From contig NZ_CP084472.1 of NCBI RefSeq assembly GCF_020405225.1, positions 1,736,001-1,800,000 on the forward strand: 64,000 nt of DNA. The letters run 5' to 3'. A program made the position numbers and the translations under genes. Below, piece after piece: positions 31,726 through 56,624 of the stretch. The stretch's first letter is position 1. Every line of letters begins with the position of its first letter. The stretch comes from Natrinema sp. DC36. GTDB lineage: Archaea; Halobacteriota; Halobacteria; Halobacteriales; Natrialbaceae. The notes below the pieces were generated by a model. That model saw nothing but the letters and a program-made list of their open reading frames with translations, ran no database searches and was not told where the DNA came from.

Positions 31726-32150
31726 GCCGCTATCGTCGGCCGGCAGTGAGCGAGTTGGGGTCGTCGGCTGGCTGTGGGCGATGGATCGTCGGCTGGCTGT
31801 GGGCGATGGATCGTCCGCTGGTCCTGACGAGTCCGGTAACAGTTCCCGCCGAGAGCGCGGTCTGAGACGGATTTCCGTCCCGGTTTCCCGGCGCGATCGC
31901 GACCGCCCTGCAGGTGCACCGAAACCGGCTGACAGCAGTCCGTCTGACCGCCGTCAGTCGATCGTCTGACGCGGTTTTATTGGGTACCGGCGCGACGGAA
32001 GGAACAGGCGCGAGGCGGCCTCCCCACCCCTCCCCCACCCATCCGCCTGCGCGCCTGCTCCCGTTTCTCTCCCCCTTTTGTCGCGTCGACCAGCCTGATC
32101 GAGTCACAGCGGCTGGTTCGAGGGCCGATTCGAGCCCGGAGACGACCCGA
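31726..32150. other. Intergenic region, 3' ends of convergent genes, with a short tandem repeat
   Basis: About 425 bp between the convergent methylase and trkA genes. No gene is supported. It holds a 25-bp tandem repeat (separate entry), a region around 31930-31970 with several short CTGAC/GTCAG elements that could pair, and a C/T-rich tract 32019-32080. The last may serve as a terminator region. Confidence 0.4.
31761..31821. repeat. 25-bp tandem repeat, about 2.4 copies
   Basis: A 25-bp unit beginning TCGTCGGCTGGCTGTGGGCG occurs at 31761-31785 and identically at 31786-31810. A third partial copy (TCGTCCGCTGG, one mismatch) starts at 31811. It lies in non-coding DNA 35 bp after the methylase stop. 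The period is not a multiple of three. It is probably a slippage product. Confidence 0.75.
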
Positions 32151-54046: not shown

Positions 54047-55111
54047 ATGTCCGATACCACTGACGAGAGGCGAACCGATCATCCGGACACGAGCGGCTCC
54101 GCGCTCCGCCGACGGTCGTTTATCGTCGCGGCGGGTGCGTCAGCGACGGGACTGGTCAGCACCGCCGGTGCATCCCCCGGTCACGGGACAGGACCTGGCG
54201 GTGCCGGCGATCGGCGAGGCGACGATCGAGACACAGATCGGTTCTTCGATCGTACGGGCGATCCGGATCTCATCGCTCACCGCGGGTTCGCCGGCCTGTA
54301 TCCCGAAAACACCGTTGGCGCTGTCGAGGCCGCGGCCCGCGGCGGACAATCATCGTCTGCGCCGTCCCGCGGTGCGGATATGATCGAGATCGATGTCGTC
54401 CCGACGGCCGATGGCGATATCGTCGTCTTTCACGACGACCGCCTCGCCGAACGCGACGGCGGCGACCGTGGACTCACGGACACTGCGGGCGTCGTCTGGG
54501 AGACGGACACGGAGACCGTTACGAGCGCCGATGTCCTCGAGAGCGGGGAAACCGTCCCTCGCCTTCGGACCGTGCTCGAGGCGATCCCGAGTCACGTCGG
54601 CGTCAACGTCGAACTGAAGAATCCGGGCTCGTTCGACGTACGGTTCGCCGAATCGCTTTCGGGCGACGACCTCGAGACGCAGAAAGCGATCTGGCAACCG
54701 TTCGTCGCGCGGGTGCTCACGGTCGTCGACGACTTCGATCACGAGTTCCTCTATTCGTCGTTCTACGAGGCGGCGTTGGCGACGACCCGCGACGCGTCCG
54801 ACTATGCGGTCGCACCGCTACTCTGGAACTCCGTTCGGGACGGCGTCGAGATCGCTCGACGGTACGACGCCGAAGCGATCCATCCGCCCTATCACATGAT
54901 CCGTGGGACGCCGTTCTACGCCGATCAGCACTCCGAGGACGACGCGGGCTGGTCCGATATCGACCTCCTCGATGTAGCCCACGAGGAGGACCGGACCGTG
55001 AACGTCTTCACGCTCGAGACGTGGTACCAGGCGGAGCGGCTCGCAGCGGTCGGCGTCGACGGGCTCATCAGCGATCACGCTGACGTCCTCCGATTCGGCG
55101 CGACAAACTGA
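54047..55111 (+). CDS. Tat-exported glycerophosphodiester phosphodiesterase
   Basis: 354 residues. A twin-arginine signal L-R-R-R-S-F-I-V-A-A-G lies near residues 21-31. The mature enzyme is a TIM barrel: L-I-A-H-R-G-F-A-G-L-Y-P-E-N-T near 77-91 (catalytic His, Glu), E-I-D-V near 113 and F-H-D-D near 126, and N-V-E-L-K-N near 185. It hydrolyses glycerophosphodiesters outside the cell, giving glycerol phosphate. The stop is only 6 nt before a perfect tandem repeat. Confidence 0.87.
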   Translation: MSDTTDERRTDHPDTSGSALRRRSFIVAAGASATGLVSTAGASPGHGTGPGGAGDRRGDDRDTDRFFDRTGDPDLIAHRGFAGLYPENTVGAVEAAARGGQSSSAPSRGADMIEIDVVPTADGDIVVFHDDRLAERDGGDRGLTDTAGVVWETDTETVTSADVLESGETVPRLRTVLEAIPSHVGVNVELKNPGSFDVRFAESLSGDDLETQKAIWQPFVARVLTVVDDFDHEFLYSSFYEAALATTRDASDYAVAPLLWNSVRDGVEIARRYDAEAIHPPYHMIRGTPFYADQHSEDDAGWSDIDLLDVAHEEDRTVNVFTLETWYQAERLAAVGVDGLISDHADVLRFGATN

Positions 55112-55502
55112 ATCTCGCGTCGTTGCATCGTTGAGCCGCTACGTCGTTGCATCGTTGAGCCGCTACGTCGTTGCATCGTTGAGCCGCTACGTCGTTGCAT
55201 CGTTGAGCCGCTACGTCGTTGCATCGTTGAGCCGCTACGTCGTTGCATCGTTGAGCCGCTACGTCGTTCATCGGTACCGTTCCGGATCCAGTGATCGATC
55301 CGTCTTTTTTCAGATTCCCCGTGACCGAAACACAGATTTAGGACGGAGGAGCAGTATCACACGAACGGATGATACGTGGTGTCGCCCCCGCGATCCGGTC
55401 TGAGCGTCCCGACGGGTCACTCGAGCGACCGGAAAGCGATCCGCGCCGGAACCGGCGACCGGCCGCGATCGCTCGAGCGGCTCGACGGCGGGTGATCGGC
55501 CC
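55112..55502. other. Intergenic region holding the tandem repeat
   Basis: About 390 bp. The first 150 bp are the 24-bp array. After it, a T-run at 55302-55307 (CTTTTTTC) could end transcription of the phosphodiesterase gene. The remainder up to the recombinase start shows no gene, tRNA or palindrome. Confidence 0.45.
55118..55268. repeat. Perfect 24-bp tandem repeat, six copies plus a partial seventh
   Basis: A 24-bp unit, starting CGTCGTTGCATCGTTGAG and ending CCGCTA, is repeated without change at 55118-55141, 55142-55165, 55166-55189, 55190-55213, 55214-55237 and 55238-55261. The first seven bases of a seventh copy follow. As 24 is a multiple of three, three frames remain open through the array on each strand, but these frames lack starts or signals of real proteins. 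It lies between the phosphodiesterase stop and the recombinase gene. Confidence 0.9.
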
Positions 55503-56624
55503 GTGACCGAGGTGGCGATCACGGACGCGGTCGACGCCTACCTGCAGCGAAAGGCCGTCGGCGATCCGGACGGCTCGGGTGCCGGAGCCTACGCGTCCAA
55601 CGCGGAATCGATCCTCCGCCGGTGGGCCGACTGGCTCGATCGGGATCACGGACTGACCTCCCTGTTCGCACTCGAGGTCGAACACATGCGCGCGTACGCG
55701 GAGGAACTCCGGCGCAAAACCGGTCGCGGCGAGTACACCGCCTCGACCGCCGGCACGTACTACGCGGTCGTCCGGGCGTTCCTCTCGTGGTGCGTCCGCG
55801 GCGGGATCCTCGCGGACAACCCCGCCGCGACCGACCGCGCTGAGGCCGCGCTACCAACCGCCGACGAGCGACCGGCGAGCGATTTCTGGACCGCGCGGCA
55901 GCGTCGCGAACTCGAGCGGTACGTCCGCGAGCGGGCGCTCGATACCGGTCGATCGATGCACGAGCGACGCGGCCGACTGCGCGAGTACGCGATGGTAGCC
56001 GTCCTCGCTCACTCGACGGTCCGCGGATCGGAGCTGTTCCGGGTCCCCGACGACGATCGCCGGACGGGTGCCACGTGGGACGATGTCGATTTCTACACGG
56101 GAACGATCCGCGTCCTCGGAAAGTCTCAGCGACTCGAGGACGTTCCCCTCCCCGCCCGCGCCCGGACGCCGTTGCGCCGCTACCGGGTCGTCCTCGATCC
56201 GCCGTCGAACGACTGGCCGCTGTTCCCGACGGCCCACGCGCCGTCGATCGCCGGTCGCGTGCGGTCCGTGCTGCGCGATCGAGGGTACGACAACGAGACG
56301 ATCGAATCCCTGCTCGAGGACGCGACGGCGACGGAACTCGCCCGTGAGCGCTCGATCGCGCCGCCGGCGATCACCACCGAAGGGGCACGGTCGGTGTTGC
56401 GGCGACTCTGCGAGGGTGCCGGGATCGACGTCGACGGCGACTATCTGACGCCGCGAGGCGTCCGTCGAGATCGATCGGGGGCGTCGTACCGACAGGAAGC
56501 GACGGAATCGAAGCCGACGCTTCGGGCGTCGGTGCTCGAGCAGTCGATCGTCGTTCCGGACTCCCGGTCCACGGTAGTAGATGCCGAGCCGGTCGAGGGC
56601 GACGAGTCGACGGATACGGACTAA
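55503..56624 (+). CDS. Degenerate tyrosine-recombinase/integrase-family protein
   Basis: 373 residues starting at GTG. An N-terminal SAM-like domain (I-T-D-A-V-D-A-Y-L, then A-E-E-L-R-R-K-T-G-R-G-E-Y-T and L-S-W-C-V-R-G-G-I-L-A-D-N-P) is followed by a catalytic domain with R near 174 (H-S-T-V-R-G-S-E-L) and K near 208 (L-G-K-S-Q-R-L). The box II motif reads T-P-R-G-V-R-R, where active enzymes have T-P-H-x-x-R-R. The last ~45 residues contain no tyrosine apart from S-Y-R-Q-E. It is probably catalytically dead, a domesticated DNA-binding relative. Confidence 0.75.
   Translation: MTEVAITDAVDAYLQRKAVGDPDGSGAGAYASNAESILRRWADWLDRDHGLTSLFALEVEHMRAYAEELRRKTGRGEYTASTAGTYYAVVRAFLSWCVRGGILADNPAATDRAEAALPTADERPASDFWTARQRRELERYVRERALDTGRSMHERRGRLREYAMVAVLAHSTVRGSELFRVPDDDRRTGATWDDVDFYTGTIRVLGKSQRLEDVPLPARARTPLRRYRVVLDPPSNDWPLFPTAHAPSIAGRVRSVLRDRGYDNETIESLLEDATATELARERSIAPPAITTEGARSVLRRLCEGAGIDVDGDYLTPRGVRRDRSGASYRQEATESKPTLRASVLEQSIVVPDSRSTVVDAEPVEGDESTDTD

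Follow-up and report, generated by a model that had tools for sequence, protein, structure and literature searches.

A probable young 24-bp minisatellite downstream of a phosphodiesterase gene in Natrinema sp. DC36

The spacer between a glycerophosphodiester phosphodiesterase (GDPD) gene and a degenerate recombinase relative in Natrinema sp. DC36 holds a perfect array of 24-bp direct repeats, which we read, with a probability of roughly 0.88, as a young non-coding minisatellite that arose in the GDPD 3' spacer by slippage or unequal recombination and is probably neutral. The array lies in a window of 64,000 nucleotides, the whole stretch of DNA that was analyzed (positions 1,736,001 to 1,800,000 of NZ_CP084472.1), and all coordinates are those of the window unless a contig is named. 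The initial annotation of this DNA had proposed a binding array, an iteron or simple slippage; the evidence favors slippage and leaves the other two unsupported. As a repeat, the array has little importance beyond that of a possible strain-typing marker and of a clean illustration of how a minisatellite turns over in a haloarchaeal spacer.

A perfect array at a single locus

The array was called by TRF at 55118-55273 with a period of 24, 6.5 copies, a 99% match and a score of 305. Its six identical units and partial seventh had been described correctly in the initial annotation, as had its placement: it starts 6 bp downstream of the GDPD stop codon, and the GTG start codon of the recombinase-family gene follows 235 bp 3' of the end of the partial unit. 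The observation that reading frames stay open on both strands also holds, simply because 24 is a multiple of three. Head-to-tail, near-identical units of about 10 to 100 bp characterize minisatellites, or variable number tandem repeat (VNTR) loci, and this array is built in just this way. Features of the locus are collected in Table 1.

Table 1. Coordinates of the array, its flanking features and a second spacer array in the window
Feature	Position	Strand	Evidence or remark
GDPD gene, twin-Arg-type N-terminus	54047..55111	+	PF03009, E 4.2e-24
Six identical 24-bp units, CGTCGTTGCATCGTTGAGCCGCTA	55118..55261	+	Sequence, TRF
Partial seventh unit CGTCGTT (55262-55268), 1-nt deletion relative to the unit, then CATCG	55262..55273	+	Sequence, TRF
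T6 run	55305..55310	+	Recurs at the same position in most relatives
BRE/TATA-like box, CGAAACACAGATTTA	55326..55340	+	One per genome, 28/29 genomes of the genus
45-codon leader ORF, TGA overlapping the recombinase GTG	55369..55506	+	Conserved overlap
Degenerate XerC/D-like tyrosine recombinase relative, conserved throughout the genus	55503..56624	+	XerC/XerD/XerA models, residue alignment
Second, weaker non-coding array with 3.5 copies at a period of about 25	31732-31821		TRF; begins 6 bp past a stop codon

The unit had 0 matches in 100 dinucleotide shuffles of the window. With up to three mismatches allowed, it was absent from the rest of its own 5.1-Mb genome and from 60 related genomes; the genome-wide search suggested in the initial annotation thus finds it nowhere else. 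A relaxed pattern, built from the units of this genome and of the related genome G018, had exact copies within the genus at this locus only, in those two genomes. The same pattern gave 0 matches in a scan of viral contigs and one match, in Mycobacterium, among all genome contigs, which we take as chance. Phage records yielded no match. When plasmid records were searched with a segment of the spacer, the matches were confined to the recombinase promoter region on two Haloterrigena plasmids and did not include the array.

The array is unusual in degree, because only one other array passed a threshold of at least four copies, at least 95% identity and a period of at least 10 in about 864 kb (the window together with 40 stretches of 20 kb, or 800 kb, of the same chromosome). 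That other array is coding and specifies a NATNET-type peptide repeat; the 24-bp array is the strongest near-perfect one with at least four copies in this sample. The second spacer array in the window (Table 1) corresponds to different, diverged copies at the same site in G018, which indicates turnover of such spacer repeats in these species. In a survey of prokaryotic satellites, most species have few, and the short-repeat satellites of Halobacteria appear to be predominantly coding, with periods that are multiples of three (PMC6749651). The array described here resembles the prokaryotic minisatellites and VNTR loci of that survey in its short, head-to-tail, lineage-specific repeats, in a copy number that differs among close relatives and in having no transposed copies, but it is non-coding despite its period of 24, whereas the short satellites of Halobacteria appear to be mainly coding (PMC6749651).

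Comparison with the sister species

We compared 30 fetched loci and 29 genomes of the genus, with one genome per species. GDPD lies directly upstream of the recombinase relative in 10 of the 30 loci. The nearest relative that shares the locus is the sister species represented by G018 (96% amino acid identity for the recombinase relative and 93% for GDPD), and GDPD is at the same place in eight other congeners. At the same site, G018 carries an array of 24-bp period with two diverged units and partials, its spacer reading ...CTCGCTG / CGTCGTTGCGCTGTTGAATCGCTG / CGTCGTTGTGTTGTTGAATCGCCC / CGTCGTTGCATCG..., and the spacers of the eight other congeners contain no array. The copy number at this site is therefore 6.3 here versus two full units plus partials in G018 and none in the eight syntenic congeners. 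Such variation between close lineages is typical of minisatellites. The initial annotation had named free variation between strains as one of the signs of neutral slippage; here the change in copy number is seen between sister species. Because the eight other spacers lack the array, the repeat would have arisen on the line leading to this species and G018, or else have been lost elsewhere. Among the compared loci, only that of this genome has expanded to six identical copies.

The units have changed faster than their surroundings. The two full G018 units match the unit of this species at 18 and 17 of 24 positions (75% and 71% identity), whereas the four-fold sites of GDPD and the recombinase gene, taken together, show 88% identity between these species, as does the spacer from the array end to the leader open reading frame (ORF). 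Divergence thus amounts to 25-29% in the units versus 12% at four-fold sites and 12% in the spacer just downstream, and the motif is, on this comparison, under no conservation. Within this genome, on the other hand, the units do not differ at all. If the array evolved neutrally and in a clock-like manner at the four-fold-site rate, about 0.065 substitutions per site on each lineage would give 9.4 expected changes in 144 bp on this branch, and 0 were observed (P about 8e-5). Because there are no differences over 144 bp, amplification or homogenization may be placed in approximately the final third of the branch.

These results are consistent with the following scenario. A 24-bp duplication would predate the split of this species from its sister; in the G018 lineage the copies would have remained few and diverged, and in this lineage one variant would recently have been amplified to six identical copies. 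We infer replication slippage or unequal homologous recombination as the route, a process that would also purge mutations. The site would tolerate length changes: the array is flanked by the GDPD stop codon on one side and, on the other, by a T-run where the GDPD transcript probably ends, and it stops about 55 bp short of the next promoter. On the other side of the ledger, a 24-bp-period array is found in two species, which implies some retention; CGTCGTTG is kept in the G018 units; and the array is the strongest of its kind in the sample.

Other readings of the array

The initial annotation had suggested a binding array for a DNA-binding protein, with the neighboring recombinase relative as a candidate, and such an array might regulate either the recombinase gene or GDPD. 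The array does sit upstream of the recombinase promoter, its units are perfectly identical, and CGTCGTTG is retained in both full G018 units and in the G018 3' partial. However, each of the 29 genomes of the genus has the recombinase gene and only two have the array, and the motif diverges faster than its neutral flanks; for these reasons the proposal is unsupported. The motif of a protein-binding array would be expected to be conserved in relatives or dispersed in the genome, and neither was found. Its dyad symmetry is at chance level, with 810 of 2,000 shuffles equally good. Moreover, the promoter-like box of the recombinase (CGAAACACNGATTTA) occurs in 28 of the 29 genomes, in a single copy each, whether the array is present or absent, and the array therefore lies outside the conserved control region of this gene. 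A recombinase-bound array is thus made unlikely by the species comparison, and we regard binding of any kind as improbable.

Quite improbable, too, is a role as a 3' untranslated element whose copy number would set the stability or termination of the GDPD mRNA. The T6 run downstream of the array is likely the archaeal transcription stop of GDPD, so that the array falls between stop codon and T-run, and the second spacer array likewise lies directly behind a gene. However, the RNA fold of the region is no better than that of shuffles (z 0.33), and the array is missing from most orthologous GDPD spacers. DNA folding showed nothing unusual, hairpins included, for the unit or the array relative to shuffles. 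We give just as little weight to a heritable switch, in which array copy number would tune GDPD read-through or the spacing to the promoter of the degenerate recombinase.

It is highly improbable that a small repeat-containing protein (reading SRYVVASL) is translated across the array. Starting at a TTG, the frame stays open for 90 codons, and it is open in G018 as well; however, it crosses the conserved promoter box, at most of the 30 loci it is closed within one codon of that box, and it encodes no peptide conserved elsewhere. The plus-strand frame across the array is not conserved in relatives, being closed in most, and on this ground the coding reading was rejected.

Iterons are direct repeats of about 20 bp, and the array resembles them and origin recognition boxes in form, but a replication origin or segregation site has next to no likelihood here and was rejected, since no orc1/cdc6 gene lies near the array (the nearest one that passes the family cut-off, at C1:2163845, is about 370 kb distant on the same contig), there is no adjacent initiator gene and no conservation, eight syntenic congeners lack the array, and it was found in none of the plasmid records searched, where the spacer segment reached only the promoter region noted above.

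The recombinase relative and its leader ORF

The protein encoded downstream matches XerC, XerD and XerA models with scores well under their cut-offs. R174, K207, R318 and R321 are invariant, but no His or Tyr is invariant in the C-terminal part, which should hold the last two residues of the tyrosine recombinase catalytic set (R, K, H/R-x-x-R, H/W, Y). The description "degenerate recombinase" therefore stands at the sequence level. Because these positions hold no invariant His or Tyr despite conservation of the gene in 29 of 29 genomes, we predict that the protein has probably been domesticated as a non-catalytic DNA-binding protein. Its AlphaFold model is poor (mean pLDDT 51).

The BRE/TATA-like box is likely the promoter of both the recombinase gene and the leader ORF that precedes it. 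In the loci examined, this ORF has 17-50 codons (45 here) and starts 25-29 nt past the TATA-like box, and at all 30 loci its TGA overlaps the recombinase start (GTGA or ATGA). Between close pairs, substitutions fall evenly on the three codon positions (49/43/41), and so the frame, not the peptide, seems to be kept; translational coupling of the leader ORF to the recombinase gene is likely. This leader ORF, conserved and overlapping the start of what is probably a domesticated recombinase, is a better study target than the array. The block of GDPD, the XerD-like gene and Na+/H+ antiporter subunit D is also present, with the same promoter box, on two Haloterrigena plasmids (loci L043 and L044).
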